Shown here one piece after another: positions 10,647-39,810 of a stretch of 64,000 nt of DNA; position 1 is the stretch's first letter, and every line of letters begins with the position of its first letter. The DNA lies in the NCBI RefSeq assembly GCF_008000815.1, contig NZ_CP042806.1:4712001-4776000 (forward strand). Direction: 5' to 3'. The translations under genes were made by a program, and so were the position numbers. This DNA comes from Terriglobus albidus. GTDB lineage: Bacteria > Acidobacteriota > Terriglobia > Terriglobales > Acidobacteriaceae. Under the pieces are notes generated by a model. That model saw nothing but the letters and a program-made list of their open reading frames with translations. It made no database searches and was not told where the DNA came from.

Positions 10647-10722
10647 GATTCCTCCTGTTCGTGACTCTCGTTATTAAGGAAGTGCCAGGGCGTGTCATCA
10701 AACTCCTGACGTCTGGCACGCC

Positions 10723-12159: not shown

Positions 12160-12196
12160 TGTGTGCCCTCCAGGCTTCGGAAAAAATATCAAAAGT

Positions 12197-12265
12197 GTCA
12201 TCCTGAACGTTCGGGGTCCCCAGCGAACTGGTTCGCTGGGGTGATAAGTGAAGGACCTGCTTTTC
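12197..12265. repeat. Intergenic hairpin repeat, copy B
   Basis: GTCATCCTGA (12197-12206), a CCCCAGCGAAC / GTTCGCTGGGG hairpin, then AAGGACCTGCTTTTC (12251-12265). Same module order as copy A near 981. It lies between TonB receptor 1 and the isomerase homologue and may weaken or process the transcript between them. Confidence 0.75.
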
Positions 12266-12322
12266 AATGCTTCGGCTGACACTACCCTTCATGATTTATG
12301 CGCGAACTTTAGACACAGGCAA

Positions 12323-15679: not shown

Positions 15680-15784
15680 GTTCGCCTCCGGACTCAGGCA
15701 TGGACATGCGGTAGACCTGAGAATGGCGAACATCCTAGACACGCGAATCGCCGACTCTCCAAAGGAAAGTCCGGCGAGTGATAA

Positions 15785-15801
15785 ATTTCACTGTGCGAAA
15801 T
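15785..15801. promoter_or_regulatory. Candidate operator of the IclR/PBP regulator 1
   Basis: ATTTCA-CTGTG-CGAAAT, a 6-5-6 dyad in the divergent region between TonB receptor 1 and reg1. The architecture equals the ATTCCG-N5-CGGAAT sites of locus 2, with TTT-C/G-AAA arms. Position fits control of both divergent genes. Binding is inferred. Confidence 0.55.
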
Positions 15802-15882
15802 CTTCAATACTCGAAATTGGCAAATTCCCATTGATTTTCTGAAACAGAACCTCGCACTGGAGGTTTCCTTTCGCAGCATGAT

Positions 15883-15899
15883 ATTTTGCAGTGCGGAAG
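15883..15899. promoter_or_regulatory. Weak second operator candidate before reg1
   Basis: ATTTTG-CAGTG-CGGAAG, 6-5-6 spacing with imperfect arms, just before the chosen start of reg1. It shares the GTG spacer end and CGGAA half with the other sites. If used, it argues for the start at 15908 rather than 15878, because it would lie at the promoter or leader. Confidence 0.3.
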
Positions 15900-15907
15900 A
15901 ATCTCCC

Positions 15908-18088: not shown

Positions 18089-21000
18089 CTAGAACGCCAA
18101 CTTCAAGGAAAGCTGTCCGATACGCGGATCGTTGGCTGTCGTAATCCGTCCAAAGGTCGATGCATTGCTTAGGTTGTTCGAAGGCGTGTTGAAGTTGGTG
18201 CGATTGAAAAGGTTGAAGTACTCGGCACGGAACTGCAGGTCCGTATGCTCCGTGATATTAAAGTGGCGCGTAAGCGAGGTATCGAAGGTCACGAAGTTTG
18301 GCCCGGTAAAGGTATTCTTGCGGACGTTGCCGAAGGTTCCCTTCGCAGGTGTGGTGAAGGCTGAGAAGTTCAGCCAGTTCTTACAGGATGTCGTGACGCC
18401 ACTGCACGCGTTCCCTCCATAGGCATTTCCAGAAAGGATGGGTGTGTCGCGATTGATGCCCGTGAGCGATACGTCCTGGCCCAACGCAAGCGTAATGGGA
18501 TCGCCCGTCCGAGCACTCACCAGCCCCGAAGACTGCCATCCGTTCAGGATGGCACGAAACGGCGCCCAACCATTTGTCATCTCCGGGAAGACCCACACAT
18601 ACTTCGCCGTAACGACGTTGCGGTGATCGAAATCCGAGGGACCGACATCAAGCCGTTTATAGTTCGGCAGATAAACCGGAAGGACGAAGCTCTGTCCGGC
18701 TCCGGCACTCGTCGTCGCCGCACCATTGGGTACATTGTCCAGTGACTTCGACCAGGTGTAGTTGAGCGTAACGCTCAGCCCGTGAGAGAGCCGCTCATCC
18801 AGCGTTGCCTGCATCGAGTGATACGACGAGTTGCCTCCCATGTCGGTGAGGCTGATCGTCGAGAAGCCCTGGTAGAGACGGCGCGCATTCGTGTTCGATG
18901 TGGTGGCGGTGCCGGTGTAAACCGCCGGATTGATCTCCGGCGAGGTAAAGATATGGCTGCCATGTCCGCCTACATAAGCCAACTGCATACTCAGGCTGTT
19001 GGTGAGCTGCTGGGCGAACGCAAGGTTCCACGCATAGGTCAGCGGCACCTTGAAGTTGCCGGAAGGATCAAAGGTGATAACCGGAATCGTTCCAATGAAC
19101 GCTCCGTTCGGATTTGAGACCGGGAATGGATTCGTGGTTGAACCATAGGGATTGGAGAAGTGCGTTCCCGCAGGGTTCAGACTGACAGTCGTCACAAATG
19201 GAGCACTGCCGATCCAGCCATTGTTGAAGAGGCCGTTTGAGCGCGTGTCATAGAACATACCGGCTCCGCCGCGGATGCTGCTCTTCCCATTGCCGAAAAG
19301 GTCATAAGCAAAACCGACACGCGGCATCAGATTGGTATAGACAGGGCGAATGCCATCGACAGGAACACCGGCGTCGCCGGCAAACAGCAGACCGGCGGGA
19401 GCGTTGGGAAACTTTGTCGATCGCCGGCCGGCGGCATACGCAGCGGGATTGAACTGCCCCATGCGCAGTCCGCGCTCATGCAGCGGCAGGTAGGGCTCAT
19501 AGCGAACACCGAAGTTCAAGGTAAGGCGCCGGTTAAGCTTCCAGCTATCCTGCGCATACACGCCAATGAACTTCGCGCGGTTCTGCTGGAACTGGCCGGA
19601 GCTCTGCGAGAACGTATTCAGATAACCAAACAGGAAGTTCGCCAGGGCTGTATTGCCGTTTGTCGCGGTGAAGCCATAGGTGCCGGGCTGGCCGTTCTGG
19701 TTCACCACATCGACCTTTGCCACCTCACCATGGAAGCCGAACGCCATGGTGTGATTCCCCTTCACCCAGCGCACATCGTCAGCAAGCGTCATGTTCGAGC
19801 GCAGAAAGTCCGCATGCGGATTGTCGCCCATGGAAAAGTAACTCGCCACGCTGATGCTCTGGATCGACTTGAAGGCGGGCTGCCAGATATTCACGCCGAG
19901 GTCGTTCATATTGATGCCGCCGGAGAGGGGCCCACGGGTGGCATACCCGCGCTGATAGCTGAGGATGAAGTTGTTCAGCAGATTATCGGTGAAGGTGTGC
20001 GTCTCAGAGATCAGCGCGTTCTGATAGTCGATGTTGGAACCGTCAGAGTAGGTGGGAAGGTTGCTGAGATTCAACACTCCGGCATTGGAGAACTTATCCA
20101 GGAAGTAGCGCGCGGTAAAGCGGTCCTTCTTGCCAAGGTTGTGGTCATAACGGGCAACGTATTCGAGGAAGTCCTGCGCGACCGGGCGGATGAAGTTCAG
20201 AGTAACTGGTGCGGTGCTGGTCGTATTGGCCACAGCAACGTGCGAAAGAAGGGCCAGCGATGCAGGATCGAAGTTTGACGGGTTCACAAACGCCGCACCC
20301 GTAGCAGGATTCACCGGGTAGAAGGTGTTATTGAATGGATTAGTAACGCCGGCCTGGCCGCTCAACACCGGCAGATTACCCGCAACATTCGCGGTCGTTG
20401 GTACGGTAGACGAGCTGGGCGCGTTCTGCGTGTGCACTGTCGTGCGCTGAATCCCAAAGAAGAAGAAAGACGACTTACTCTGCCAAAGTCCGGGCAAGCC
20501 TACAGGGCCACCCACCGTGCCGCCAAACTGATTGCGCTTCAGCGGATCGACGGCGGTTTGAAAGTAGTTGCGCGCATTGAAGACGCGATTGCGGACATAC
20601 TCAAAGAGGTTGCCGTGAAACTTGTTACTGCCGCCCTTGGTGATGACGTTCACCACAGCGCCGGCGTTTTGACCGTACTCCGCCGTGTAGTTGCTGGTCT
20701 GCACGCTGAACTCCTGCAGTGCATCCGGAAACGGAAACGGCGCATTGACGTTGGTGTACTCGTCCACGTTGTTGCCGCCATCCAGCAGATAGCTCGTCTG
20801 GTTGGCGCGGGTGCCGTTAGCAGAGATCGTCACAGCAGCGGGAAAGGTCTTGGTGTTGCCCTGGTCGGCTGCGCCGCTGGGTGCGGCCACGACACCAGGC
20901 GTCAGCGTTGTGAGCTGTGCGGCGTTACGGCCATTCAGAGGAAGCTCATTCACCTGCCGCTCATTCACGACCTGAGAGATGGTGCCTGTGCTGGTATCAA

Positions 21001-21403
21001 CCTGCGGCGCGGCAGAGCTTACCTCGATCGTCTCCGATGTCTGACCGATAGAGAGCTCCGCATTCAGAGTGACGGTCTGGTCCGCAAGCAGCGTGACCGA
21101 GCTGTTTGTGTAGGTCGAAAAGCCTGCGGCCTCCACACTGATCTTGTAGGTAGCTGGCGGCAGAGACGGGAAGACGAATCCTCCATCGCTGTTGGTCACG
21201 GTCTCTGTCTGCGTATTCGTCGTGACCTGCGTTGCTTTAACACGTGCACCCGGTACTGCCGCGGAGTCCCTATCCGTGACAAGGCCGACGATACGGCCCA
21301 GACCTTGTGCGAGTGAGCACGTTGATGTCAGAACGAACAGCATCAACAGTAAGGACGCGCTCCGAAACCGGCGTTCGCGGGGAGAAGCTTGCATGATCTT
21401 CAT
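18089..21403 (-). CDS. Oar-like TonB-dependent receptor 2
   Basis: 1104 residues. A signal segment (LLLMLFVLTSTCSLAQ), carboxypeptidase-regulatory-like domain (GRIVGLVTDRDSAAVPGARV to PPATYKISVEAAGFSTY), plug with NELPLNGRNAAQLTTL and SYLLDGGNNVDEY, and a barrel with the terminal Phe (IGQLSLKLAF). The ATG at 21403 has no Shine-Dalgarno; Met4 is an alternative. It lies just downstream of reg2 on the same strand but has its own 112-base leader with TGCAT-type dyads. Substrate unknown. Confidence 0.92.
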   Translation of the reverse strand: MKIMQASPRERRFRSASLLLMLFVLTSTCSLAQGLGRIVGLVTDRDSAAVPGARVKATQVTTNTQTETVTNSDGGFVFPSLPPATYKISVEAAGFSTYTNSSVTLLADQTVTLNAELSIGQTSETIEVSSAAPQVDTSTGTISQVVNERQVNELPLNGRNAAQLTTLTPGVVAAPSGAADQGNTKTFPAAVTISANGTRANQTSYLLDGGNNVDEYTNVNAPFPFPDALQEFSVQTSNYTAEYGQNAGAVVNVITKGGSNKFHGNLFEYVRNRVFNARNYFQTAVDPLKRNQFGGTVGGPVGLPGLWQSKSSFFFFGIQRTTVHTQNAPSSSTVPTTANVAGNLPVLSGQAGVTNPFNNTFYPVNPATGAAFVNPSNFDPASLALLSHVAVANTTSTAPVTLNFIRPVAQDFLEYVARYDHNLGKKDRFTARYFLDKFSNAGVLNLSNLPTYSDGSNIDYQNALISETHTFTDNLLNNFILSYQRGYATRGPLSGGINMNDLGVNIWQPAFKSIQSISVASYFSMGDNPHADFLRSNMTLADDVRWVKGNHTMAFGFHGEVAKVDVVNQNGQPGTYGFTATNGNTALANFLFGYLNTFSQSSGQFQQNRAKFIGVYAQDSWKLNRRLTLNFGVRYEPYLPLHERGLRMGQFNPAAYAAGRRSTKFPNAPAGLLFAGDAGVPVDGIRPVYTNLMPRVGFAYDLFGNGKSSIRGGAGMFYDTRSNGLFNNGWIGSAPFVTTVSLNPAGTHFSNPYGSTTNPFPVSNPNGAFIGTIPVITFDPSGNFKVPLTYAWNLAFAQQLTNSLSMQLAYVGGHGSHIFTSPEINPAVYTGTATTSNTNARRLYQGFSTISLTDMGGNSSYHSMQATLDERLSHGLSVTLNYTWSKSLDNVPNGAATTSAGAGQSFVLPVYLPNYKRLDVGPSDFDHRNVVTAKYVWVFPEMTNGWAPFRAILNGWQSSGLVSARTGDPITLALGQDVSLTGINRDTPILSGNAYGGNACSGVTTSCKNWLNFSAFTTPAKGTFGNVRKNTFTGPNFVTFDTSLTRHFNITEHTDLQFRAEYFNLFNRTNFNTPSNNLSNASTFGRITTANDPRIGQLSLKLAF

Positions 21404-21515: not shown

Positions 21516-22694
21516 CTACGCATTCAATCGAGGGCGCCTGAGCTTCGCTCCGGTGTCCAGCGGATAGACCAGATCGACATTCTTCGGGGTCAAAAACTGG
21601 TGCTTTACGAACACTGCCGGAGCAACCGGTTTATTCCGAAGAAGATTCAGCGCCAGAGGAATGACGTAGTTGCCATACCTCTCTGGGAAGTACGCGACCG
21701 AACCAATGAGCCGCGTTCCCAGACGACGGAGTTCAGCCCGCGCCTCAGGCGTGGCGTTCTGGCTGGCAACGGCACAGGTCTTCTCAGCACCAAACTCTTC
21801 CCATACGCGAACAGCCGCCAGGGCGCAGATGTCGTTGACGGTGCCGACGAGTGTACGTTTCGCACGGGCTCTACGCAGATACTTCCGCAGCATCTCTTGC
21901 ACCTGTTCAAAATCTCCACGGCCATTCAGATGAACAACAGATGCAGAGGCGATCTCCGGGAGTTCGGACTGAAGGCCATGCAGAAAGCCGGTACCGCGCA
22001 ACTCAAGCAGCGAACCGGCAATGGGAAGCTCCATCAAAACGACGCGGTCCACGCGGCCATTCCAGTTATCGTTGGCCCAGCGTCCCAGGGCCTTTCCGGC
22101 GATGACACCAGCCTTGTAGTTATTGGCGCCAAAGTAGGTAGCTCCAGGGTGCGGAACCTCGATGGCAATGACCGGCGTCTTTGCTTCCAGAAACTTGGAA
22201 GCGATAGCCGGAGCCACGCGCTCATAGGTCTGGAACTCCAGGACAAGGTCTACACCTTCGCGGATCAGAAAGTCGGCATTGCGCAGCGCTTCGCGCGCGG
22301 AGTAGCGGTTGTCTACCGTGATGAGGTCTACATTCTCCCTCGCTGCGACAGTCTCAATACTGCGCAACACTTCTTGAGAGAACTCGGTTACTCCCTGCGT
22401 GGCAAACCCAATTCGATATCTGCGTCCTGTAACGGGGCCGAAGCGATTGCGATAGACGCCGGCGCCGACGCGCTCCAGCAAGCCCCCATGGATCAGAGTA
22501 CGCAGCAACCGGAAGGCCGTGGTCTTGGGAAGTTGGGCGCGTTCCATCACCTCCAGAAGCGTGAGCTCTTCTCCAAGACTCTTGAATGCCTTCAGTACCT
22601 CACATGCACGAAGGACGGTCTGTGACTCGTTGCGATCACTGCGGCGGCTCGTCTGCATATTTGATCGACGCTCCACCTGCTTCAACGGACCCAT
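21516..22694 (-). CDS. Chimeric regulator 2: IclR-type winged helix plus periplasmic-binding-protein sensor
   Basis: 392 residues, paralogue of reg1. Winged helix SQTVLRACEVLKAFKSL and QLPKTTAFRLLRTLIHGGLL (about residues 22-75), then a LacI-type sensor: LITVDNRYSAREALRNADF, TPVIAIEVPHPGATYFGANN, VDRVVLMELPIAGSLLEL, RTLVGTVNDICALAAV, TRLIGSVAYFPERYG. The AIEVPHPGATY(Y/F)GA block is shared with reg1. GGAG lies 7 bases before the ATG. A perfect ATTCCG-N5-CGGAAT dyad stands 31 bases upstream, suggesting autoregulation. Likely controls locus 2. Confidence 0.9.
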   Translation of the reverse strand: MGPLKQVERRSNMQTSRRSDRNESQTVLRACEVLKAFKSLGEELTLLEVMERAQLPKTTAFRLLRTLIHGGLLERVGAGVYRNRFGPVTGRRYRIGFATQGVTEFSQEVLRSIETVAARENVDLITVDNRYSAREALRNADFLIREGVDLVLEFQTYERVAPAIASKFLEAKTPVIAIEVPHPGATYFGANNYKAGVIAGKALGRWANDNWNGRVDRVVLMELPIAGSLLELRGTGFLHGLQSELPEIASASVVHLNGRGDFEQVQEMLRKYLRRARAKRTLVGTVNDICALAAVRVWEEFGAEKTCAVASQNATPEARAELRRLGTRLIGSVAYFPERYGNYVIPLALNLLRNKPVAPAVFVKHQFLTPKNVDLVYPLDTGAKLRRPRLNA

Positions 22695-22724: not shown

Positions 22725-22741
22725 ATTCCGGATTTCGGAAT
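22725..22741. promoter_or_regulatory. Candidate operator, reg2/FG-GAP region, site 1
   Basis: ATTCCG-GATTT-CGGAAT, perfect 6-bp arms with a 5-base spacer, 31 bases upstream of the reg2 start. Confidence 0.7.
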
Positions 22742-22808
22742 GCGCTCCAGCACACTCGGCAGAGTACGAGGATCAGAAGCGGCGCGGCAAGGATGGATTG
22801 GTGTGGAA

Positions 22809-22825
22809 ATTCCGAATTGCGGAAT
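22809..22825. promoter_or_regulatory. Candidate operator, reg2/FG-GAP region, site 2
   Basis: ATTCCG-AATTG-CGGAAT, perfect 6-bp arms, 84 bases from site 1 (8 helical turns) and about 90 bases upstream of the FG-GAP gene. The spacing would allow looping or joint control of both divergent genes. Confidence 0.7.
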
Positions 22826-22916
22826 CACGTCGGGCAGCAGCAAAGACCTGCCACCTTGCGAAAGACCAGATGATCGTATGTACTGGCCTCATTCCAAATC
22901 GCTCTACGGAGGCGAC

Positions 22917-24137
22917 ATGACTAAGCCTGTTCTTCGCCGATACTTCAACGTTATGAAGGTAGGCTCGCCAGGTTGGGTGATGTTCGCAGCGGTTCTGTTG
23001 GCCCAAACGCAACCGGCGGCACGCCCGGTCCTGCGTTCTTTCGATCGCGTTCTACTGCTTGAAGAGAAGGGCGAAACCTCCGCCGGCGTCAGTGTGGGCG
23101 ACCTCAACGGAGACGGCCTACCGGATATCGTTCTTGGCAAAGGGCGGCATTGGCCACTCTTCAATCGGGTCCTATTGAACGATGGCCATAGCGGCTTTAT
23201 CGCCAATAACCTGGGAACTGCGCCCGACCGCACCTATTCCGCGGCGCTGGCCGATGTCGATGGCGACGGCCACCTGGACATCATAGTCAGCAACGACGCA
23301 CCCGATCGCAAACTTGTCTACCTGAATGACGGCAAAGGAGACTTCACCGAGGCCGGTACATTTGGCAGCCCCAACTGGGCGACGCGTTACGTGACCCTGG
23401 CCGACCTGAACGGCGACGGCTACCCGGACATCGTGGCCGCCAACCGCGGCGACTATCCGGACCTGGTGGACGGGAAACCCGGAAAAGGCCCACAGAATCC
23501 CACTCCGAGTTACGTCTGCCTCAACGACGGCAAAGGCCATTTTCCCGCATGCGAAGCGCTTCCGACAGAATCGGCAACATCCATCGTTGCGGCGGATCTT
23601 GACGGCGATGGAGCAATCGATCTCTTCGTACCTCATCGTGACGGCGGCCAAAGCATCGTACTTTGGAACGACGGCAAGGGACACTTCCCGGTCTCGAGCA
23701 AAGTCGGCGCCACTAACGCCTGGATTCGCATGGGCGCAGCCGGCGATCTCAACGGCGATGGGCGGTTGGATCTGGCGATCATCGATGAACACCTGAAGGC
23801 TTCCTTCATTCTTTTCAATCGCGGCAAACGCCAGTTCGGAGAACCTGTCAGGCTTCCCGGCCCCGATCGGCCGCCGTACTGCCTGGCAATCGCCGACCTG
23901 AATCGCGACAAACGACCGGACATCATCGTCGGCTACGTGGAGCTTCCCGGATCAGTATTCTTCAACACCGGAAAGGGCCGCACCTTCCACGAGGTTCCCT
24001 GGAACGACGGCAAAGGCACCGTGTATGGCCTGGCCTTCGCCGACTTTGATGGAGACGGCTGGCCCGAGATCGTGGCGGCGCGTTCCGATGCTCCCAATGG
24101 CATCTGGTTCAACACGAAGCCGATTGGTGGGCGTTGA
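22917..24137 (+). CDS. FG-GAP/VCBS repeat protein
   Basis: 406 residues, probably exported (hydrophobic stretch WVMFAAVLLAQTQPAA). Seven calcium-binding-type loops mark the blades of a beta propeller: DLNGDGLPD, DVDGDGHLD, DLNGDGYPD, DLDGDGAID, DLNGDGRLD, DLNRDKRPD and DFDGDGWPE, most followed by an LNDGKGxF strand. Such proteins usually bind ligands or glycans at the surface; no catalytic site is seen. GGAGG precedes the ATG at 22917; the longer frame to 22740 crosses both operators. It is divergent from reg2 and ends 5 bases from the convergent kinase gene. Confidence 0.85.
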   Translation: MTKPVLRRYFNVMKVGSPGWVMFAAVLLAQTQPAARPVLRSFDRVLLLEEKGETSAGVSVGDLNGDGLPDIVLGKGRHWPLFNRVLLNDGHSGFIANNLGTAPDRTYSAALADVDGDGHLDIIVSNDAPDRKLVYLNDGKGDFTEAGTFGSPNWATRYVTLADLNGDGYPDIVAANRGDYPDLVDGKPGKGPQNPTPSYVCLNDGKGHFPACEALPTESATSIVAADLDGDGAIDLFVPHRDGGQSIVLWNDGKGHFPVSSKVGATNAWIRMGAAGDLNGDGRLDLAIIDEHLKASFILFNRGKRQFGEPVRLPGPDRPPYCLAIADLNRDKRPDIIVGYVELPGSVFFNTGKGRTFHEVPWNDGKGTVYGLAFADFDGDGWPEIVAARSDAPNGIWFNTKPIGGR

Positions 24138-24142
24138 CGCGC

Positions 24143-25429
24143 TTATGCGTCACGCACGACCTGGAAGAAATCGTCATCACCCATCTGTCCGCCCTTGAGC
24201 GCAAGTTCAATGTCGAGTGCGCCATGCGTGCGGCAAAGAGGAACGCCGATATGAAGATTCGCCTGCCAGGTAAGCGCCCTGAGTCCAAGCTGCCGAACCG
24301 CGTGCGAGCTGGTATCGCCACCGCAGAGGAGAACGCGTGAGATGTTAGTGGCCTGCGCAATCTGGCGCATCATGATGCCGAGGAGCTCGCCGAGGCTTGA
24401 GCCCGATGCCGGCCCACTGACCGCCCCCATCGCGCTATAGAGCACCGTGTCCCTGCCTTGTCGTATGGATTGAATGGCCTGGGCAACGATGACGTGCTGA
24501 CGATTTGTATCTTCTAGAAGCTCCTCTGGATGGAGTGCAATGCCGACGAAGTCATGTGCGAGTGCCCATCGCAGTTGCCGTTCTGTAGCGACAGAGCAGG
24601 AGCCGCTCAAAACCAGGAGAGGTCTCCGCGTTTTCGGTGGTAAAAGTGTGTCTGATCTAAGAGCGGAATCCAGCCCCATATCGCGCCACGCCTCGACCAA
24701 CGCAGCAGTCAGACCCGAGCTTCCAACGGCAAACCTCTGCCGTTGCCTCGCGACTTGCCAGAGAAGCCTGCCTATCGCACTCAACTCGGGTGAGCGCACC
24801 GTATCAAAGAGAACGGCATCCGCACCTGCAGCTTCAGCTTTCGCAAAGGCGGTGAAGTCATCTCCTCTGCGAATGTTTCGGTAGTCCACATGGTCTATCC
24901 GCAGCGTCGTCTGTGCACAGAGATGTCTCCGCAAGTCCGCTTCACACATTGGAGTCACAGGGTGCCGGCTCATTGGGTGCCGATCGATGCGCAAGACCCT
25001 GCCGTCGGGTCCGGCAGCATACAAGCGCCTTCGCCACACATAACGGCGAAGATGAGGAGCACCCACAACGATGGGGACCATGTGTCCTTGAAAGATCTCT
25101 CGACCGATCTCCATCGCACAACCGATACTCCCGATCTGCGGTGACGAATCGAAGGTGGAGCAAACCTTATAGTGCGTGATGGGAGCGCCCGCCGCCTGCA
25201 ACGAACGGAAGACCGTGGGAAGGTTTTGCTTCATCCACTCCGGTGATTGAGAACGGCTCTCTCCGGCGATTCCATAAGCGCGGAGCCCCGGCACCAATGC
25301 CAGATCCTCGACCGTCGGCGGAGCCAAAAACAACGCAGAGGGAATGCCGCCGCGAGCAAGCTGCTCCAGCACATCGGTTGAGCCGGTGAAGTCGTCGCCG
25401 TAATAGGTATAGAGCAGCGGGTCGCGCAT
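24143..25429 (-). CDS. Four-carbon acid sugar kinase family (DUF1537), OiaK-like
   Basis: 428 residues. ATP-dependent kinase of acid sugars. N-terminal substrate domain with YYGDDFTGSTDVLEQL; C-terminal nucleotide-binding domain with LLVLSGSCSVATERQL, LLCGGDTSSHAVRQLG and LALKGGQMGDDDFF, all family signatures. Known members phosphorylate threonate, erythronate or 3-oxo-isoapionate. The ATG follows the RuBisCO-like stop by 5 bases, so the two are almost certainly co-translated. The RLP/DUF1537 pair is the arrangement described for OiaX/OiaK in D-apionate catabolism; specificity here is inference. Confidence 0.88.
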   Translation of the reverse strand: MRDPLLYTYYGDDFTGSTDVLEQLARGGIPSALFLAPPTVEDLALVPGLRAYGIAGESRSQSPEWMKQNLPTVFRSLQAAGAPITHYKVCSTFDSSPQIGSIGCAMEIGREIFQGHMVPIVVGAPHLRRYVWRRRLYAAGPDGRVLRIDRHPMSRHPVTPMCEADLRRHLCAQTTLRIDHVDYRNIRRGDDFTAFAKAEAAGADAVLFDTVRSPELSAIGRLLWQVARQRQRFAVGSSGLTAALVEAWRDMGLDSALRSDTLLPPKTRRPLLVLSGSCSVATERQLRWALAHDFVGIALHPEELLEDTNRQHVIVAQAIQSIRQGRDTVLYSAMGAVSGPASGSSLGELLGIMMRQIAQATNISRVLLCGGDTSSHAVRQLGLRALTWQANLHIGVPLCRTHGALDIELALKGGQMGDDDFFQVVRDA

Positions 25430-25434
25430 TCAGC

Positions 25435-26706
25435 TCAGGCTCCGAAGAGCTCAAGCGCCTGTGCCAACTCCTGATGGCGGCTCGCGAATTCGGCCAGAGG
25501 GATACCTTTAACAGCAGCCTGCCAGGCCTGTTGCAGACTGCACACACCCGCAGCCGGACCTCCGGGATGCCCCATGATGCCTCCGCCGCAGGCATAGATC
25601 AGATCAGTGCATCCAAGCGCTTTGTAGGTATCGGGCGCCTGGCGCGCGCTCTGTCCCGACGAGAAGACGGGCATAACCTCGCAGCCGGACAAAGGCTCCG
25701 GAAACATCGGCGTAAGGCATGAGCGAGCAGATGCAATCACCGACTCGTCGCTCTCGCAGAATTTATTGCGAAGCCCATTCACATGCGTGTGATCGATGCC
25801 GGCAAGCCGCCACAGCTTGCTGAAAGCGACGAAGCTCATCCCCAGGGCAGGCGACCGGCCGAGCATCCCCCAGCCATTGCGATGACCGTGGATCGGCACC
25901 TGTGAGTGCGCACGCAGAACCTTCATCGCCGGCAGGCCGATAGAGTTCATGCTCACCATGACACATAGTCCGCCTTCAGCGACGACGTGGTCGTGACGCC
26001 GCAGCATCTCGTCGATCTCACCGGTCAGATTCGGCGCGTACATCACGTTCTTCCCTGTCCGCTCCGCGAACTCCCGCAAGACGTGCATCACCGCCGAGAC
26101 GCGAGCCATAAACGAACAGTGTGCACCATCAGTCTGCAGTTCATCATCCTTGATGAAATCGATGCCTGCTTCCGCCAGCACACGTACCTGCGCCGCCGTG
26201 GCCTGCGGATCCATGCCGATGCTGGGTTTAATGATGGTGCCGATCAGCGGCCGCTCATACACGCCTGACAGAGCCCGCGTACCGCTGACACCAAACTGCG
26301 GCCCCCGATACCGCGAAAGAAATTCAGCCGGCAGTTCCAGATCCAGAAGCTTCAACCCGGAGAACGCCTTCAACTCCGAAAGATTGCCGGCAACAGTAGA
26401 TAGAAGATTGGGCAGTGAGGGGCCAATATTCTCAAGCGGCCATGAGAGCGTGACCTCGGCCGTGCGTCGAACCCCATCCCAGTTCTTTGGTGTTCCGGCG
26501 CCTGGCAGCGACGGAGCAGCAACCGGTTCTCCCTCAGCGATGAGTTCGACCTGTGCGGCGAAGCGCTCGCGCAATGCCTGCGTCTCTCCAGGAACACGAA
26601 GAAACGTTCCCGTGGACTGCTCACCGGCCATGGTCTCCGCTGCCTGCTCCGGCGGAAAGGCTGTTTCGATGAAGTAACGCGCACAGATGCGCGGATGAGT
26701 GCTCAC
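25435..26706 (-). CDS. RuBisCO-like protein (form IV), OiaX/OiaT-like
   Basis: 423 residues of the RuBisCO large-subunit superfamily. Retained: first active-site Lys (Lys160 in GTIIKPSIG), the metal ligands Lys186, Asp188 and Glu189 in DFIKDDE, His275-Arg276 in GHRNGWG, His308 in HTHVNG, Ser350 in VFSSGQ, and the phosphate loop GGG 374-376. The second Lys of the KPK motif (Lys177 of plant RuBisCO) is Ser162, and loop 6 differs, so CO2 fixation is not expected. Other RLPs decarboxylate or isomerise acid-sugar phosphates. GTG start with GGAG 8 bases upstream; 12 bases after the GH127 stop. Confidence 0.92.
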   Translation of the reverse strand: MSTHPRICARYFIETAFPPEQAAETMAGEQSTGTFLRVPGETQALRERFAAQVELIAEGEPVAAPSLPGAGTPKNWDGVRRTAEVTLSWPLENIGPSLPNLLSTVAGNLSELKAFSGLKLLDLELPAEFLSRYRGPQFGVSGTRALSGVYERPLIGTIIKPSIGMDPQATAAQVRVLAEAGIDFIKDDELQTDGAHCSFMARVSAVMHVLREFAERTGKNVMYAPNLTGEIDEMLRRHDHVVAEGGLCVMVSMNSIGLPAMKVLRAHSQVPIHGHRNGWGMLGRSPALGMSFVAFSKLWRLAGIDHTHVNGLRNKFCESDESVIASARSCLTPMFPEPLSGCEVMPVFSSGQSARQAPDTYKALGCTDLIYACGGGIMGHPGGPAAGVCSLQQAWQAAVKGIPLAEFASRHQELAQALELFGA

Positions 26707-26718: not shown

Positions 26719-28515
26719 TCAACCGCGATAAAAATAGCTCGTATAGCGTTCATTGTCGATACGGTAAAGCGGTACAAAGACCGCATCCCGGCCCGCGTAC
26801 CGTTCGGTATAGGCCTGCGGACCCGCCGCCTTCAGATTGGATGGCAGCGGCAGCTTTGCGTGTGCCTCGACTGCGGGAATATTCAGCGCAACATACTGCA
26901 CCGGTCCGCGCATCAAAGCGACCACATCCGGGTTCCGGTCATCGATGCTTTCGGTGCGGAACTCCTGCGGAAGCATCAGCTCCACGCGATCCCCTGCTTT
27001 CCACCGGCGACGCAGCGCATAGAACGTTCCGGCGGAAGCATTGGCCGTCTCCACCTTTCCGTTCACGCGGATGGTTGCGGGACGCTGCAACCAGCCGGGA
27101 ATGCGAAGGTGTAATGCAAAGGTCGCCTCCCGGGAAGGATTCACGATGAGCATCACGTGATCGTCAACCGGATACTGCGTCTCCTGGGTCAAAACAACAG
27201 CAACATCCTTTATCTGAGTCTGTACGCGCGACGGCGTATACAACGTGACATATAAGCCGTCGTCGGCACCGAAGTAGATGTTGAGCGGATAGTCCGCCAC
27301 GGTCTGCACCAGCGTGCCGGAGCAGCAGGGCCACTTCTGCTTGTAGTAGACCTTGTCCGTGTAGGGCGAGTAGGTGGAGTAATACGGATAGCGGCCCTCT
27401 GAGTCCGGCCGCTTCACACCAAGGATGGTATTGAAGAGAACACGCTCCAGGTTGTCAGCATACGCCGTGTCTTGCGGAACTCCGGTCCGCAGCAGATATC
27501 GCGCCAGCTTGGTTGCGGCATAAGCGCCACAGGGAGTCTCAAAGTGATCGACCGTAGTGCTGAGTGATGCATACAACTCACCACGATGGGGCGTGATGAA
27601 GGTCTCGTTTGGTCCCCAGCCGCCGCTGGAGAACTGCTGCGTCATCGTCAACAGCCGAAAAGCATGGCGCATGGCATCGCGATACTTAACATCTCCGAGC
27701 GAGAGATACGCCTTACCTCCGGACGAGAGGGCAATTGCGTGCGAGTACGCATGCTGGCCGGGGAATGGATCTTCCTTGCGGGCGAGCCGGTCAAAGAACT
27801 CGCGGTCCAGCAGATACCGCACGGCGTACTCGCGGAACGCGGGATTCCCCGTAGCTTCCGATGCAGCGAACAGGTTCTCCGGCATGATGTATGTCTCGTC
27901 GTATGGCGGATCCTTCTTGCCGATGCGATCGCGTCCCTGTGCAGGCAGTAGAGACTTCGCCCCTTCGAAGACACGGTTTAAGAGGTCCGTCGTGCCTGGG
28001 ACCTTGGACAGAGTTCCCGCATCCAGCAAACCCACCAGGTGCTTATCGACGGTGTAACAGGTCCAGAGATTCGTCTCCGGCCGAAGGATACTGACGTTCT
28101 GCGCTCCAAGCGTCGCCGCAAACCCCTCGACCAGATCATGGGCTTTAATATGGCAGGCATCGTCTCCCGTGGTCGCTCCCATGCGGGCCATACCGGAGAT
28201 GTACTGCCCAAGCCCGTGTCCCGGAACGAAGCCATCGCGGTCATACCATCCGCCCATATCGTCACCGGGAGCAGGCAGACCGGCGCGCTGCCGATAGACC
28301 TTCACCAAGCGATCGTTCGAGAGGGAGAGGTAGTGTGCCTTGAGAGCGAAGTACTGCTCGGCAAAAGGACCGCCCGTCAATTGCACTTCGCTGTACTGCA
28401 ACTGGCGCAGCGGAGCACGATCAGCACTCTGACCCACCGCATCTTCAGCGCCCATCGCTGTTGCAACGACGGTCATCGCGGAGGTCTTCAGAAATTCTCG
28501 ACGGGTAAAGCTCAC
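26719..28515 (-). CDS. GH127-family glycoside hydrolase with Tat signal
   Basis: 598 residues. Twin-arginine signal FTRREFLKTSAMTVV, then the (alpha/alpha)6 barrel of the DUF1680/GH127 family: DDMGGWYDRDGFVPGHGLGQY, a region with Glu in NLFAASEATGNPAFREYA, and WPCCSGTLVQTVADYPLNIYF, where the Cys pair matches the zinc-bound nucleophile Cys of GH127. C-terminal beta domain HLRIPGWLQRPATIRVNGK. Family members are beta-L-arabinofuranosidases; one acts on aceric acid of rhamnogalacturonan-II. The GTG at 28515 gives a normal Tat n-region; the frame extends to 28557 (also GTG). A candidate operator is at 28599-28615. Confidence 0.87.
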   Translation of the reverse strand: MSFTRREFLKTSAMTVVATAMGAEDAVGQSADRAPLRQLQYSEVQLTGGPFAEQYFALKAHYLSLSNDRLVKVYRQRAGLPAPGDDMGGWYDRDGFVPGHGLGQYISGMARMGATTGDDACHIKAHDLVEGFAATLGAQNVSILRPETNLWTCYTVDKHLVGLLDAGTLSKVPGTTDLLNRVFEGAKSLLPAQGRDRIGKKDPPYDETYIMPENLFAASEATGNPAFREYAVRYLLDREFFDRLARKEDPFPGQHAYSHAIALSSGGKAYLSLGDVKYRDAMRHAFRLLTMTQQFSSGGWGPNETFITPHRGELYASLSTTVDHFETPCGAYAATKLARYLLRTGVPQDTAYADNLERVLFNTILGVKRPDSEGRYPYYSTYSPYTDKVYYKQKWPCCSGTLVQTVADYPLNIYFGADDGLYVTLYTPSRVQTQIKDVAVVLTQETQYPVDDHVMLIVNPSREATFALHLRIPGWLQRPATIRVNGKVETANASAGTFYALRRRWKAGDRVELMLPQEFRTESIDDRNPDVVALMRGPVQYVALNIPAVEAHAKLPLPSNLKAAGPQAYTERYAGRDAVFVPLYRIDNERYTSYFYRG

Positions 28516-28598
28516 GGTCTCTCTCGTTTCCTGCGGTGCAACGGAAGGATAAAACACGCTGAAGATGATTTGCCGCGCGTGCCGGCATTCAGAACAGG

Positions 28599-28622: not shown

Positions 28623-29894
28623 TTATCCCAGATCTTCAGCCGTTTCCAGACCGCGTGTGCAATCCACACGGGCAAAGATCACTGCAGCCAGCAGGATCAT
28701 CACCGCAATCATCCGCACCGGAAGATCGTAGTTCCCGGCAAACTTTACGACGTAACCGAAGACGATGGTGCACACCCAGCCACCGAGGTTTCCGGCAGTA
28801 TTCATTACGCCGGACGCTGTGCCGCCGAAGTTGCCGCCAAGCCCCATTGCCATGGCCCACGCCGAGGGCAACATCAGGTCCATCACACCAAAACCCGCTG
28901 TCGCCAGGACGATAATGCCCGTGTGCGTCTGGACCGCGGTCATGCCATACAACAAGCATGCCGCAACGCTAAGGCAGATTGCCGTAACCCAGCGGTAAGC
29001 TCTTCGACGGCCAAAGCGTATGACCAGCCACTCCGACAGCACTCCACCTGCGAGGTTACCGGCCAGTCCCATCAGGAAAGGCAGCGACGCCCAGATACCC
29101 ATCTCCGCAACGGTGAAGTGGGCGCTGCGCACCAGCCAGGTGGTGAACCATCCGAAGAAGAACCAACTCCCCCACGCATAGCAGAAGTAAGCCAATGACA
29201 GCAGCCATAGATCCGGCAGCCGGAAGAGCCGCGACCACGGAACCCTCTCTTGCAGCTCTGATGCCTGGTAGCCCGATGAGGTGACCGTTGGGGAACCGAT
29301 CTCAATCAACTCCTCAATGTCGATGTCGGGCGTAGCCTCCGGGCTTTCTCGAAACAGAAGCAGCCATAGAGCAACCCAAACGAATCCGATAGCGCCCATG
29401 CACCAGAAGATTCCACGCCAGCCCACCGATCGGGCTAATGGCACAAGCAGCAACGGGGCCAACGATCCACCAAGCCTGCTGGCGCCCCACACGAAACCCT
29501 GCGCGCGCGCATGTTCTTTTTTAGGGAACCAGCGGCTGATCACACCGGCGGCATTCGGATACGCTCCGGCGGCTCCCATGCCGAAGAGGAAGCGTGATGC
29601 CGCAATCTGCAGAAAGCTGCGGCACCATCCTGTCATTGCTGTAAAGAAGCTCCACCAGGTGACGATGCGTGCGAGCTCTTTGCGCCGTCCGTGCCGGTCC
29701 CCGAGGGCTCCCGAAGGAATCTCAAAGATGGCATTTGCGAGGATGTAGGCTCCGAGCACCCATCCCCACTGCTCTTCCGAGAGATGAAGATCGCTGCGGA
29801 TGCCGCTCTCGGCAACCGGCAGAGCCAGCCGGTCCAGAAACGTAATGATGCTGAGGGCGCACAACAGCATCAGCACCGTGTGGCGCTTCTTCAA
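28623..29894 (-). CDS. MFS transporter, anion:cation symporter (ACS) type
   Basis: 423 residues with about 12 membrane helices. Motifs: ITFLDRLALPVAESGI in helix 1, GALGDRHGRRKELA in the loop 2-3 signature, and GVISRWFPKKEHARAQG typical of ACS (hexuronate, galactonate, tartrate) transporters. An acid-sugar substrate would suit the acid-sugar kinase and RLP downstream. The TTG at 29894 is chosen as start: GGAGG lies 7 bases upstream and it overlaps the racemase stop (TTGA). Frame extension to 29933 would overlap the racemase gene without a ribosome binding site. Confidence 0.88.
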   Translation of the reverse strand: MKKRHTVLMLLCALSIITFLDRLALPVAESGIRSDLHLSEEQWGWVLGAYILANAIFEIPSGALGDRHGRRKELARIVTWWSFFTAMTGWCRSFLQIAASRFLFGMGAAGAYPNAAGVISRWFPKKEHARAQGFVWGASRLGGSLAPLLLVPLARSVGWRGIFWCMGAIGFVWVALWLLLFRESPEATPDIDIEELIEIGSPTVTSSGYQASELQERVPWSRLFRLPDLWLLSLAYFCYAWGSWFFFGWFTTWLVRSAHFTVAEMGIWASLPFLMGLAGNLAGGVLSEWLVIRFGRRRAYRWVTAICLSVAACLLYGMTAVQTHTGIIVLATAGFGVMDLMLPSAWAMAMGLGGNFGGTASGVMNTAGNLGGWVCTIVFGYVVKFAGNYDLPVRMIAVMILLAAVIFARVDCTRGLETAEDLG

Positions 29895-30592
29895 ACAGCA
29901 GCCTCCACCGGCTTGCCCAGCAACACGTCGCAAGCGTGCAGCACATCGCGAGCACGCAACACGGCAAGCTCAGGCGAGCTCAGTACAGGCATGGGCAAAG
30001 CATCCTGTCCCATGGCCTGCACCACCCGCGCCATGCTGGCTTGCGCCAGTACCACAACATCCACGTCCTTCATCTCCTCCAGCAACGCCTTCGACAGAAT
30101 ACGATCATGGGTCGCGGTATCGCCGGCGAGCATTGCTTCGAAGGCTCCATCACAGAGCGACGACACCAACTCCACGCTCTTCCCTGCTGCATCCGCCTTA
30201 TCGCGCAGCAGCGCCAGGGTCGGTTCCAACGTGGTACGCAGCGTCGCCATCACGCCGATACGGCTCCCCCGCTGCACGGCCTCTTCGGCCATGGCATCGT
30301 CTACGCGGATCACCGGAATATCCATCACCTGCTGCCCAATGCGAACACCAGCTCCAATGGAAGAGCAGGTCACCATCACAGCATCCGCGCCGGCGTCCTG
30401 TGCGGACTGCAACATCGCCAATAGCCGCCGGATCGTCACCCGCCGCAGAGCACCGTGACGGATGGTGTCTTTGATCAGACTCTCGTCCACCATATGAAAG
30501 ACGTTCACCCCGCTCAGATGCTGGGAACACAGCGCGCCGAAGATGGGCGTAAGCGTAGGGCTGGTATGAATCAGAGCGAGCGTCTGTGACAC
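29891..30592 (-). CDS. Asp/Glu racemase superfamily protein
   Basis: 233 residues. Two-domain racemase fold with TLALIHTSPTLTPIF at the N-terminus, first catalytic-type Cys in VMVTCSSIGAGVRIG, and the second-domain strand VVVLAQASMARVV. In true racemases a second Cys stands in this strand; here it is Ala/Ser, so the classical two-Cys mechanism is unlikely. It could be an isomerase, decarboxylase or epimerase of an acid sugar. GTG start at 30592 with AAGGAG 7 bases upstream. First gene of the leftward operon; its stop overlaps the MFS start. Confidence 0.82.
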   Translation of the reverse strand: MSQTLALIHTSPTLTPIFGALCSQHLSGVNVFHMVDESLIKDTIRHGALRRVTIRRLLAMLQSAQDAGADAVMVTCSSIGAGVRIGQQVMDIPVIRVDDAMAEEAVQRGSRIGVMATLRTTLEPTLALLRDKADAAGKSVELVSSLCDGAFEAMLAGDTATHDRILSKALLEEMKDVDVVVLAQASMARVVQAMGQDALPMPVLSSPELAVLRARDVLHACDVLLGKPVEAAV

Positions 30593-30825: not shown

Positions 30826-31986
30826 ATGATTCGCACCAACCGCCGCGAGTTTCTCGCCATGGCAACCGCTGCCGCACTTGCCCCGGCGGCAATGGCACAG
30901 GATGATCCGGTCGCCCCGTTTCGGACACCATACAAATATCCAAAGCTTGTCCTCGCTCCGGCCAATTCGTCCATTCCAAGTAATGCTCCCGCCGGTAGTG
31001 AGGTCTTCGACTCGCGCGGAGTCGATGACCCGATCGTCTTTCGTGCCGACGGTATCTTCTACATGCTGTACATCGGCTTCGACGGAATCGGATACCAGAC
31101 CGGCCTCGCCAGCAGCCACGATCTGGTGACCTGGAAGCGCGAAGGAAACGTCGGACCGCGCGACCCAAACTCGAAGTACACACGGTTCAATCTCGCGGTC
31201 AGTACCATCCTGCGCGACAAGAACCTTCACGGACGCGGCGACGCTATCAAGGTCGATGGCCAGTATCTCGCCGCCTGGCATGCCTATCCCGCAGCCGGAT
31301 ATGAGTCCGGTCCGGCTGTCATCGGCCTGGCGCGCTCTCGCGACCTTCGACACTGGACACTTACGGAACCGATCCTCCGTCCTGAAGAAGGAGAGGCGTG
31401 GGAACGTGGCGGCCTGTACCGTCCGGACCTCTTCGTCGAAAAGTATCAGGGTAAGCGGACCTATTTTCTCTACTACAACGCGAAGACAGAGACCCTGCCG
31501 AAGGATGAGGGAGGAGGTTGGCAGGAGCGAAGCGGCGTCGCCATCAGCACAGACCTGGTGCACTGGACGCGATCGCCACTCAACCCTCTTTTGGAAAATG
31601 GCCCAAGAGGCGCCGCGACCTATCCCGCGGAGAGTCCCCTCGCTGCAAACGCTCCCTCTGCCGACACGCGTGATAGCCGCTTTGCCTCAAACCCCTACGT
31701 CATGAAGTGGCATTCGAGCTATGCGATGTACTACTTCGGCTTCAACTACGAACGCCCGGGCCGCGCCCGTGAGCTGCTTGCTCTAGGCCGCGATCCGTTT
31801 CACTTTCAGAAGGTGCCGGAAGTCCTGATAGATACCGGCGCGCCTGGCTCCATCGACGAGACCTTCGCTCACAAACCATCGCTGATCTATCACGATGATG
31901 CGCTTTATCACTTCTACTGCGCCGTCTCGGGCAAATATCCTAATGAGATTCGCGGCGTCGCCGTCGCACGGTCCAAGCCATGGTGA
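30826..31986 (+). CDS. Five-bladed beta-propeller glycosidase (GH43/GH32/GH130-like) with Tat signal
   Basis: 386 residues. Tat signal TNRREFLAMATAAALAPAAMA. Propeller strands of clan GH-F/GH-J type: GVDDPIVFRADGIFYMLYIG, GLASSHDLVTWKREGN, IGLARSRDLRHWTLTEPIL, GVAISTDLVHWTRSPLN and HKPSLIYHDDALYHFYCAV. The Asp in VDDPIVF stands where the GH43 catalytic base lies. Family cannot be fixed by eye. The GTGGAG ribosome site precedes ATG 30826; the in-frame extension to 30586 runs through the operator. Its stop overlaps the GH29 start by 7 bases, so the two are coupled. Confidence 0.8.
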   Translation: MIRTNRREFLAMATAAALAPAAMAQDDPVAPFRTPYKYPKLVLAPANSSIPSNAPAGSEVFDSRGVDDPIVFRADGIFYMLYIGFDGIGYQTGLASSHDLVTWKREGNVGPRDPNSKYTRFNLAVSTILRDKNLHGRGDAIKVDGQYLAAWHAYPAAGYESGPAVIGLARSRDLRHWTLTEPILRPEEGEAWERGGLYRPDLFVEKYQGKRTYFLYYNAKTETLPKDEGGGWQERSGVAISTDLVHWTRSPLNPLLENGPRGAATYPAESPLAANAPSADTRDSRFASNPYVMKWHSSYAMYYFGFNYERPGRARELLALGRDPFHFQKVPEVLIDTGAPGSIDETFAHKPSLIYHDDALYHFYCAVSGKYPNEIRGVAVARSKPW

Positions 31987-33641
31987 GATTCCCGCGTTTA
32001 AAGAACACGGCCATTGCTGGTTTAGCAGCCTGGCCATTCATCGCCCTCTCAGTCGCTGCTCAGACACAGGCGGCACACGACAAAGCAGTTACAGCACAGG
32101 TCAGCCGAGTGCAGCAATACACAACAGCGGCAAGGCCATTCGCTGCGAACTGGGACTCGCTTGCGGCTTATCACACGCCTGCATGGTTTCAGGATGCGAA
32201 GTTCGGCATCTTCATTCACTGGGGCGTGTACTCCGTTCCTGCGTTTGCCAACGAATGGTATTCGCGGAACATGTACGTCCCGGGCAATAAAGCGTACGAA
32301 CATCACATCGCGACCTACGGACCGCAAAGCAAGTTCGGCTACAAAGACTTCATCCCGATGTTTCGTGCGGAGCACTTCGATGCCAGCGCCTGGGTTGACC
32401 TCTTCCAGAAAGCTGGAGCACGTTATGTTGTTCCCGTAGGCGAACACTGCGATGGCTTCGCCATGTATGCCTCCGATGTAACGCCGTGGAATGCCAAAGC
32501 GATGGGACCGCATCGCGACATCGTCGGCGAACTCGCGACCGCGACACGGGCACATGGCCTGCGCTTCGGTGTCTCCTCGCACACAGCTGAGCACTGGTGG
32601 TGGTACGTCCTTGGCCGCACCTTCGATTCCGACGTGCGTGCCATGAGTTCCACTGCGACGAACGAACTCCCACCAACCTCCCTGCTGTACGGTCCGGCAT
32701 CACCGCGGAATCTGCCTGCGGCAGATGGCATAGTGGACGATCACAAAGAGCCAAATCCCGATCACCTGGAACGTTGGGTGCCTCCCAGCCAGAACTTCCT
32801 GAACGAGTGGTTGGCAAAATCAACCGAAGTCGTCGATAAGTACCACCCAGACTTCATGTACTTCGACTGGTGGATCGGTCAGCCCGCGTTCAAGCCCGCA
32901 CTGCAGCAGTTCGCTGCTTACTACTACGACCGCGGCGCCGAGCAGCACGAGCAACCGGTGCTCACCTACAAGCAGGAGTCCATGCCCGCCAACGCCGCCA
33001 CCCTGGACATCGAACGCGGCAAGCTCGATACGCTCCGCTTGCTGCCCTGGCAGACAGATACATCGGTTTCCATCCACTCCTGGGGATACGCTGAGCACGA
33101 TGAGTACCGCACGGCGAGATCGCTCGTGCATCAACTGGTCGACACCGTCTCCAAGAACGGCAACCTATTGCTGAACGTAGGACCGAAGGCGGATGGCGCC
33201 ATTCCCGAAGAAGCCAGAACCGCTCTGCTGCAGATCGGTGACTGGCTAAGAGTGAACGGCGAGAGTATCTACGGCACCCGCCCCTTCACCGTCTTTGGGG
33301 AAGGCCCCACCAAAGCACCAAAGAACGCAACCGAGAAGAACAGCGACATCCAGAACTACACGGCTCAGGACATCCGCTTCACGGTCTCGCACGGAACAAA
33401 AGAACCGCTGCTCTACGCGACTCTTCTGGGATGGCCCTCGCAATCTGAAACGGTTATCCACACGCTCTTCGCCGGAAATCCATACCTTCCTGGTGCAGTG
33501 TGCGCTGTCGATCTGGTCGGAGGCAAATCGAACCTGTCCTTTCAACAGCGGCCAGATGGAATGCATGTGACCATGCCGTCCTCCCCTGAGGGCCTCGGCG
33601 ATATCGCCTACGTGTTGCGTATTCACACACACTGCAAGTAG
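31980..33641 (+). CDS. Alpha-L-fucosidase, GH29
   Basis: 553 residues, with an N-terminal export signal (IAGLAAWPFIALSVAAQ). The TIM barrel carries GH29 signatures WFQDAKFGIFIHWGVYSVPA, KAGARYVVPVGEHCDGFAMY, and the nucleophile Asp in FMYFDWWIGQ, then NGNLLLNVGPKADGAIP and WLRVNGESIYGT. Releases L-fucose from glycans in the periplasm. Overlaps the propeller glycosidase stop by 7 bases. Fucose occurs in rhamnogalacturonan-II and xyloglucan, which fits a plant cell-wall locus. Confidence 0.93.
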   Translation: MVRFPRLKNTAIAGLAAWPFIALSVAAQTQAAHDKAVTAQVSRVQQYTTAARPFAANWDSLAAYHTPAWFQDAKFGIFIHWGVYSVPAFANEWYSRNMYVPGNKAYEHHIATYGPQSKFGYKDFIPMFRAEHFDASAWVDLFQKAGARYVVPVGEHCDGFAMYASDVTPWNAKAMGPHRDIVGELATATRAHGLRFGVSSHTAEHWWWYVLGRTFDSDVRAMSSTATNELPPTSLLYGPASPRNLPAADGIVDDHKEPNPDHLERWVPPSQNFLNEWLAKSTEVVDKYHPDFMYFDWWIGQPAFKPALQQFAAYYYDRGAEQHEQPVLTYKQESMPANAATLDIERGKLDTLRLLPWQTDTSVSIHSWGYAEHDEYRTARSLVHQLVDTVSKNGNLLLNVGPKADGAIPEEARTALLQIGDWLRVNGESIYGTRPFTVFGEGPTKAPKNATEKNSDIQNYTAQDIRFTVSHGTKEPLLYATLLGWPSQSETVIHTLFAGNPYLPGAVCAVDLVGGKSNLSFQQRPDGMHVTMPSSPEGLGDIAYVLRIHTHCK

Positions 33642-39733: not shown

Positions 39734-39810
39734 TGGTGGCGGTGGACAGAATCGAACTGTCGACCTACGGGTTATGAGTCCGTCGCTCTAACCATCTGAG
39801 CTACACCGCC
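39734..39810 (-). tRNA. tRNA-Met (anticodon CAU)
   Basis: Reads 5'-GGCGGTGTAGCTCAG on the minus strand; 7-bp acceptor stem GGCGGTG/CACCGCC, D-loop with AGATGGTTAGAGC, anticodon loop CTCATAA, T-loop GTTCGATTC, and an encoded CCA end. The G1-C72 pair argues against an initiator tRNA. A CAU anticodon could also be tRNA-Ile2 with lysidine; elongator Met is more likely. Confidence 0.9.

Follow-up and report, generated by a model that had tools for sequence, protein, structure and literature searches.

A RuBisCO-like protein operon of Terriglobus albidus and its predicted role in aceric acid catabolism

A RuBisCO-like protein (RLP) and a DUF1537-family kinase are encoded side by side in a 64,000-nucleotide stretch of Terriglobus albidus DNA (NZ_CP042806.1, positions 4,712,001 to 4,776,000; hereafter, the window), raising the question of which acid sugar this pair helps to degrade. 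A preliminary description, made from the DNA alone, took the two proteins for the decarboxylase (OiaX) and kinase (OiaK) of 3-oxo-isoapionate, i.e., for apionate-type catabolism. As a whole, that description is partly supported. An RLP joined to a DUF1537 kinase is indeed an acid-sugar module, and its suggestion of entry at the level of an acid sugar, or of a new step, agrees with the reading favored here, but the assignment to OiaX, OiaK, and 3-oxo-isoapionate did not hold. Judging from gene content across genomes, the operon to which the pair belongs probably catabolizes aceric acid from side chain B of rhamnogalacturonan-II (RG-II). Aceric acid (3-C-carboxy-5-deoxy-L-xylose; PMC8218411), a rare plant pectin sugar, is one of those characteristic of RG-II. 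An enzyme that releases it is known, and we found no bacterial route for its breakdown described in the open-licence literature. The gene set described here would turn that gap into testable enzymes, provide a new predicted substrate for form IV RuBisCO homologues, and hint at novel chemistry for the Asp/Glu racemase fold. It would also spare these genes the names OiaX and OiaK.

The operon and the family membership of its RLP and kinase

The RLP and kinase genes are the last two of a five-gene operon that runs on the minus strand from 30592 to 24143. In order of transcription, its genes are:

29891..30592, minus strand: RAC, an Asp/Glu racemase-family protein (Pfam Asp_Glu_race), operon gene 1, with a probable GTG start at 30592
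28623..29933, minus strand: major facilitator superfamily (MFS) transporter; best NCBIfam match a D-galactonate transporter subfamily, at 201 bits below the cut-off of 395
26719..28557, minus strand: glycoside hydrolase (GH) of GH127 type (Pfam GH127 domains) with a twin-arginine translocation (TAT)-like leader
25435..26706, minus strand: RLP, 423 aa (Pfam RuBisCO_large 215 bits, RuBisCO_large_N 35 bits)
24143..25429, minus strand: DUF1537 four-carbon acid sugar kinase family protein, 428 aa (Pfam SBD_N 160 bits and NBD_C 101 bits, cut-offs 25 and 28.3)

The RAC and MFS frames overlap, and the following gaps are 65 bases (MFS to GH127), 12 bases (GH127 to RLP), and 5 bases between the RLP stop and the kinase ATG (25430-25434). 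The last of these gaps had been given in the preliminary description, as had the racemase-family protein and MFS transporter, which lie just upstream of the RLP on the same strand. Both domain scores of the kinase place it within its family, and the pair is single-copy, with one RLP match in the complete 6.4 Mb genome.

The metal ligands Lys186, Asp188, and Glu189 of the RLP were confirmed, and the second lysine of the KPK motif is absent as described, the motif reading KPS. The protein is not a bona fide RuBisCO, since the K177-equivalent lysine is replaced by Ser162. Across 117 compared RLPs, K160, K186, D188, and E189 were invariant and residue 162 was S or N; it was A in one further OiaX (L166; L and G numbers denote loci and genomes). 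In keeping with the preliminary description, assignment to the methionine-salvage family MtnW was rejected, the RLP scoring 149 bits against TIGR03332 with a curated cut-off of 513.6.

The best NCBIfam matches of the pair were nevertheless OiaX and OiaK, and like that pair the window RLP adjoins a DUF1537 kinase, retains the equivalents of K175, K201, D203, E204, and K334, and has lost K177. The best matches favor the explanation that the operon degrades 3-oxo-isoapionate after all, with OiaK and either OiaX or an OiaT-type transcarboxylase/hydrolase RLP, the substrate being supplied from apionate through a non-homologous upstream enzyme. Against this, the RLP scored 448 bits with the OiaX profile (NF042437) and the kinase 387 bits with the OiaK profile (NF042436), where the curated cut-off of each is 700. 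The cut-offs alone are weak evidence, since the Labrenzia pair (L024), found in an apiose locus with a lactonase ApnL of 925 bits that exceeds its own cut-off, also falls below them (416 and 426 bits). The active-site residues are more telling. At the alignment positions that we take to be RuBisCO E60, N123, and H327, three annotated OiaX proteins (L027, L166, and L167) have D, G, and Q, a signature defined in this analysis from those three; E, N, and H stand there in the window RLP and in all nine non-OiaX proteins compared with it. Only L027 and L049 among the 117 RLPs deviate from E and N at the first two positions. The OiaX/OiaK assignment was therefore rejected on cut-offs and active-site residues together. 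L049 (G392), from another acidobacterial family, has Leu and Gly at these two positions and neighbors OiaX in the tree described below.

The window RLP is ~45% identical to OiaX and 53-63% identical to non-OiaX RLPs of apiose loci that likewise adjoin a DUF1537 kinase (Labrenzia L024; Ancylobacter L085, L086, and L091); in L024 and L086 the active-site residues are identical to its own. Such same-family RLPs in apiose loci (e.g., L024, L051, and L057) speak for 3-oxo-isoapionate, although these Labrenzia and Ancylobacter proteins are OiaT-like by exclusion only, the Xanthobacter OiaT sequence lying outside the comparison. The gene partners differ, however: the Labrenzia and Ancylobacter loci carry ApnO plus ApnL and/or ApsD, whereas RAC and a GH127-type gene take their place in the window. 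In four apiose-type loci (L024, L051, L055, and L057), the RLP and kinase are recorded merely as a RuBisCO-family protein and a four-carbon acid sugar kinase.

As the preliminary description had stated, the upstream enzymes of the apiose route are missing nearby; tblastn found no homologue of ApsD, ApnL, or ApnO in positions 12001-42000 of the window. ApsD, whose Gfo/Idh/MocA family is so widespread that a match would mean little, was sought in this interval and not genome-wide. No ApnL turned up among 20 acidobacterial genomes that encode the RLP (the complete genome of the window and 19 relatives), and all six comparison genomes or records were positive, four of them above the cut-off. The ApnO domain (PF16896) was likewise found in none of the same 20 and in 8/8 comparison genomes or records. 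The bacterium therefore lacks the established path to 3-oxo-isoapionate.

Gene partners of related RLPs and the link to aceric acid hydrolase

Comparison of sequences across genomes brings out a conserved gene set and, in other phyla, its link to a curated aceric acid hydrolase and to RG-II enzymes. At E 1e-60, 298 genomes sampled from the order of the window gave 20 with an RLP match, all of one family. A sample of 396 from the phylum gave 10, of which three belong to other families. Nineteen acidobacterial loci were fetched, some of which stop at contig edges. All 19 had the RLP and kinase, 17 had GH127, 17 RAC, 17 the MFS transporter, and 12 a GH137-like gene; homologues of an IclR-type regulator and of a GH29 protein, both also near the window operon, occurred in 14 and 9, respectively, and ApnO, ApnL, and ApsD in none of the 19.

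A wider comparison took in 80 loci from a scan of named genomes (the best 80 of 566 confirmed relatives). GH127 was present in 16/22 loci with RAC vs. 3/58 without it (Fisher p = 2e-9), and apionate genes showed the reverse (3/22 vs. 45/58; p = 2e-7), bearing in mind that related loci are non-independent and locus lengths unequal. An MFS gene accompanied 18 of the 25 RAC/GH127 loci and one of the 45 apiose loci. Any of six tested GH markers occurred in 16/25 and 0/45, respectively, a count that is biased because the markers were picked mostly from RAC loci. RAC was also detected away from the RLP. Seven of eight RAC/GH127-type genomes or records, the window genome included, had it at 48% identity or more; seven of the eight had been picked for lacking RAC near the RLP, and L076 was placed among them by clade only. 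RAC above 37% identity was found in 0/14 other genomes, four of which had weak relatives. On a Croceibacterium plasmid, the RAC-MFS pair lies apart from the GH127-RLP-kinase genes.

The aceric acid hydrolase is represented by BT1003 (PMC10850190, PMC5698469) and by the equivalog NF049879, with a cut-off of 950 bits. Several RLP loci contain a GH127 above this cut-off, both in Bacteroidota (L140, 1168 bits; L144, 1152; L125, 1145) and in Chloroflexota (L121, 997; L104, 1020). Four of these five also hold the kinase and RAC. The fifth, L125, holds neither, and its genome encodes a RAC of 48% identity elsewhere. In Rufibacter, a hydrolase of 1189 bits is encoded on the RLP-bearing plasmid. These five loci and this plasmid account for all six of the 44 genomes or records searched that exceeded the cut-off. 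The 38 below it comprise 17 of the window clade, 3 with both RAC and ApnO, and 18 of apiose type or other. The best of the last 18 was L138 (G677, Verrucomicrobiota) at 942.5 bits, with the GH127 apart from its apiose-type RLP locus. In L121, L125, L144, L157, L158, L162, and L165, the gene immediately before that of the RLP encodes a curated-type hydrolase.

The strongest test counted co-occurrence in 250 genomes of a single order (Sphingobacteriales, judged by family), that of Mucilaginibacter G660, which had supplied the query sequences. The hydrolase exceeded its cut-off in 86 genomes, and the RLP and RAC were found in 31 and 30. All 30 RAC genomes held both the RLP and the hydrolase (Fisher p = 2.4e-16, uncorrected for kinship and with G660 counted by construction). 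The sole RLP genome of the set without RAC, G887, had no hydrolase match at 1e-150 and has an ApsD-RLP-kinase-ApnO-ApnL locus. Of the RAC loci, 17 were fetched, and all 17 read RLP-kinase-RAC-symporter or RAC-symporter-RLP-kinase, with a sodium symporter; the hydrolase stands immediately upstream in four.

A tree of 117 RLP rows, built by a quick method, requires five changes of the RAC/GH127 label, at least four of which are forced by well-supported branches. The label marks 32 of 33 rows in a clade shared by Acidobacteriota and Pseudomonadota, a Bacteroidota clade (4 rows), two Chloroflexota rows amid apiose rows, and L081, L082, and L088. Four phyla have the module: Acidobacteriota, Pseudomonadota, Bacteroidota, and Chloroflexota. 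The window RLP falls in its own clade, beside apiose-context clades that include Ancylobacter. Since the partner set switches as a whole, we argue for functional linkage as opposed to idle neighborhood. For 3-oxo-isoapionate, the presence of ApnO in three RAC loci and the occurrence of apiose, too, in RG-II chain B (PMC8218411) are points in favor. However, RAC and apiose genes come near to mutual exclusion, the co-occurrence is with aceric acid hydrolase, and the conserved partners (RAC, an acid transporter, and a GH127-type hydrolase) point to aceric acid instead; we regard 3-oxo-isoapionate as an improbable substrate.

A predicted route for aceric acid

Every reaction of the route is predicted, including those of RAC as an isomerase and of the window GH127 on aceric acid. 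The GH127-type enzyme would release aceric acid in the periplasm, although it is not the curated equivalog. It passes the Pfam families PF07944 and PF20736 (121 and 88 bits), has the GH127 fold of BT1003, and shares with five curated-type aceric acid hydrolases, to which it is 20-23% identical, the invariant residues E340, C343, C411, and C412, which we take to have the Zn/nucleophile role. The aceric acid anion would then be imported by the MFS carrier, and RAC would shift the carbonyl from C1 to C2 to give HOCH2-CO-C(OH)(COOH)-CHOH-CH3. This ketose would be 3-oxo-isoapionate with CHOH-CH3 in place of CH2OH. Its ketone would adjoin a carbon that bears both OH and COOH, the same core as in 3-oxo-isoapionate and in the carboxylated intermediate of RuBisCO. 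The DUF1537 kinase would phosphorylate the primary hydroxyl (CH2OH) of the keto acid. Finally, the RLP would run a RuBisCO-like late half-reaction (carboxylate shift, hydration, and C-C cleavage), the products probably being 3-phosphoglycerate and lactate, which would be L-lactate by an unchecked stereochemical reading. The operon has no dehydrogenase, lactonase, or oxidoisomerase, as would be expected since the proposed route needs no redox step. In its complete form, with RAC as the isomerase, kinase and RLP cleavage yielding 3-phosphoglycerate and L-lactate, the module present in four phyla, and at least four switches of RLPs between aceric acid and apiose partners, the redox-free route is a more tentative proposal, possible rather than probable.

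RAC was proposed as the isomerase since it is the only module enzyme left for this step. Its AlphaFold model (pLDDT 92.4) has the Asp/Glu racemase fold, and Foldseek aligned it with Asp/Glu/hydantoin racemases and arylmalonate decarboxylase (TMq 0.52-0.77 among the 50 matches listed) at 13-21% identity. It differs from racemases with two catalytic cysteines, however, as only the cysteine in TCSS is conserved, which we take to be the first catalytic cysteine of those enzymes. The expected site of the second reads AQASMAR, within a conserved pattern AQ.SMAR. A single conserved cysteine would suit a one-base proton shuttle. An AraA/SftI-like sugar isomerase of the window (10723-12282; PF11762; 48 bits to L-arabinose isomerase) was also considered for this step, a candidate that would count against RAC, and was set aside since a tblastn search of other loci did not detect it in any of them.

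The RLP step allows another outcome. For the parent 3-oxo-isoapionate reaction, RLPs are reported to perform either decarboxylation or transcarboxylation/hydration (PMC6302742). If the RLP only decarboxylated the aceric acid intermediate, a 5-deoxypentulose 1-phosphate would be formed, to be split by an aldolase encoded elsewhere into dihydroxyacetone phosphate and acetaldehyde. Such a reaction would suit a beta-keto acid, as the substrate would be, and the name of the nearest named family, OiaX, is that of a decarboxylase. We nonetheless consider it unlikely and favor transcarboxylation/hydration since the RLP retains the E60 and N123 equivalents that OiaX has lost, since no aldolase was recognized in the conserved module (aldolase families were not searched for), and since related RLPs have a gene for pyruvate kinase (L025, L053, and L064) or enolase (L064) as a neighbor, which suggests 3-phosphoglycerate as the product.

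Two of these neighborhoods (L053:12044-13459; L064:11734-14783, with the enolase) also contain SDR-type and TRAP genes, hinting that their RLPs make 3-phosphoglycerate, possibly from hamamelonate. A hamamelose/hamamelonate pathway in the window itself, with the RLP as last enzyme forming 3-phosphoglycerate and glycolate, is highly improbable. Such a route would need dehydrogenases, no SDR, TRAP, or lactonase gene is among the five of the operon, and the link to aceric acid hydrolase would be left unexplained. In its favor, same-family RLPs do occur with TRAP and SDR-type genes, and papers citing the work on Ochrobactrum anthropi place an RLP in a pathway of this kind (PMC8914248, PMC10176493). 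Elsewhere in the tree, genes for a VOC-family protein and a TRAP transporter precede the RLP-kinase pair in L026, L062, and L063, which form a clade of their own.

Several observations weigh against aceric acid as the substrate of the operon. The window GH127 reaches 105 of the 950 bits of NF049879, and 0/17 genomes or records of its own clade pass that cut-off. Its model (pLDDT 77) is nearest in fold to GH146 (8qf8, Z 37.2), ahead of BT_1003 (5mqo, Z 33.6), and fold comparison did not separate an aceric acid hydrolase from an arabinofuranosidase. Among the 30 Sphingobacteriales RAC genomes, the hydrolase adjoins the RLP by coordinates in 6, most being not adjacent, and 56 of the 86 hydrolase genomes have neither RLP nor RAC; therefore, another route for aceric acid must exist in those 56. 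To our knowledge, no aldose-ketose isomerase has the Asp/Glu racemase fold. RAC relatives of ~45% identity occur in unrelated contexts in the two Rhizobium plasmids viewed, and the metagenome-assembled genome G930 (L077) has GH127, RLP, and kinase with no RAC match. Three acidobacterial loci (L081, L082, and L088) combine RAC and MFS with RLP, kinase, and ApnO; two of their genomes have no GH127-type match and none of the three has a GH137-like match. Possibly these bacteria consume aceric acid as well as the apiose-derived acid, or their RAC serves a different function. Label changes in the tree could include losses, so that repeated assembly of the module is not proven. GH127 enzymes, finally, take other substrates as well (PMC5698469).

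Some of these points would suit a different pectin sugar, branched or acidic, as substrate of the operon in the window clade (Acidobacteria and sphingomonads), with the GH127-type enzyme freeing a sugar other than aceric acid: the window GH127 is distant from the curated hydrolase and nearest to GH146 in fold, no member of the clade exceeds the hydrolase cut-off, and the RLP clade is apart from that of Bacteroidota. We consider this rather unlikely. The two groups share homologous RAC, kinase, and RLP. In each, several loci have a GH127-type gene immediately preceding that of the RLP, and genes of GH137-like or alpha-galacturonidase-like type occur in the vicinity.

RG-II enzymes and other neighbors of the operon

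RG-II-type enzymes accompany the operon. Beyond it, the window contains the following genes:

30826..31986, plus strand: GH137-like protein (Pfam GH43-like), divergent from the operon, with its ATG start at 30826 read from the DNA (NF049877 104 bits, profile 29-350)
31980..33641, plus strand: GH29 alpha-L-fucosidase (Pfam 346 bits), on the strand of the GH137-like gene
21516..22694, minus strand: IclR helix-turn-helix fused to a periplasmic-binding-protein (PBP) domain by domain scan, a likely regulator
18089..21403, minus strand: TonB-dependent-type outer membrane protein (OMP_b-brl_4 667 bits)

The best PDB matches of the GH137-like protein were 5mt2 and 5mui, labeled beta-galactosidase, which we take to be BT0996. 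The window protein matches the GH137 domain of BT0996 alone (profile positions 29-350 of NF049877) and differs in being single-domain, with no GH2 part, scoring 104 bits where the whole-protein cut-off is 1800. GH137 of BT0996 is active on RG-II chain B (PMC9843283), whose sugars are rhamnose, 2-O-methylfucose, arabinose, galactose, aceric acid, and apiose (PMC8218411). The window protein is likely a beta-L-arabinofuranosidase of this side chain. Matches to the GH137 part only, chosen from the rows by profile position, were present in 17/19 RAC/GH127 vs. 2/12 apiose-type genomes among the matches listed, and in 0/3 RAC+ApnO genomes and 0/1 other. In L036 (16408-19086), an alpha-galacturonidase-like protein, presumably GH138, gave a near full-length match of 749 of 1300 bits. 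The 2-O-methylfucose of the side chain does not explain the GH29 gene of the window, since GH29 enzymes are said in PMC12282258 not to accept that sugar.

The TonB-dependent-type protein is, judged by position only, a possible oligosaccharide importer. The gene of an FG-GAP/VCBS repeat protein (22740-24137) converges on the kinase gene, with 5 bases between their ends. Composition and tRNA scans of the window gave no information bearing on the function of the RLP operon. Positions 9150-17068, which include the AraA/SftI-like isomerase, also encode a GH39-like protein, a large TonB-receptor-like protein, and a second IclR-PBP regulator, and are possibly a sister sugar-use locus. On the other side of the operon, an IS110-family transposase gene (38370-39422) is followed by a tRNA-Met gene (39734-39810) on the opposite strand.

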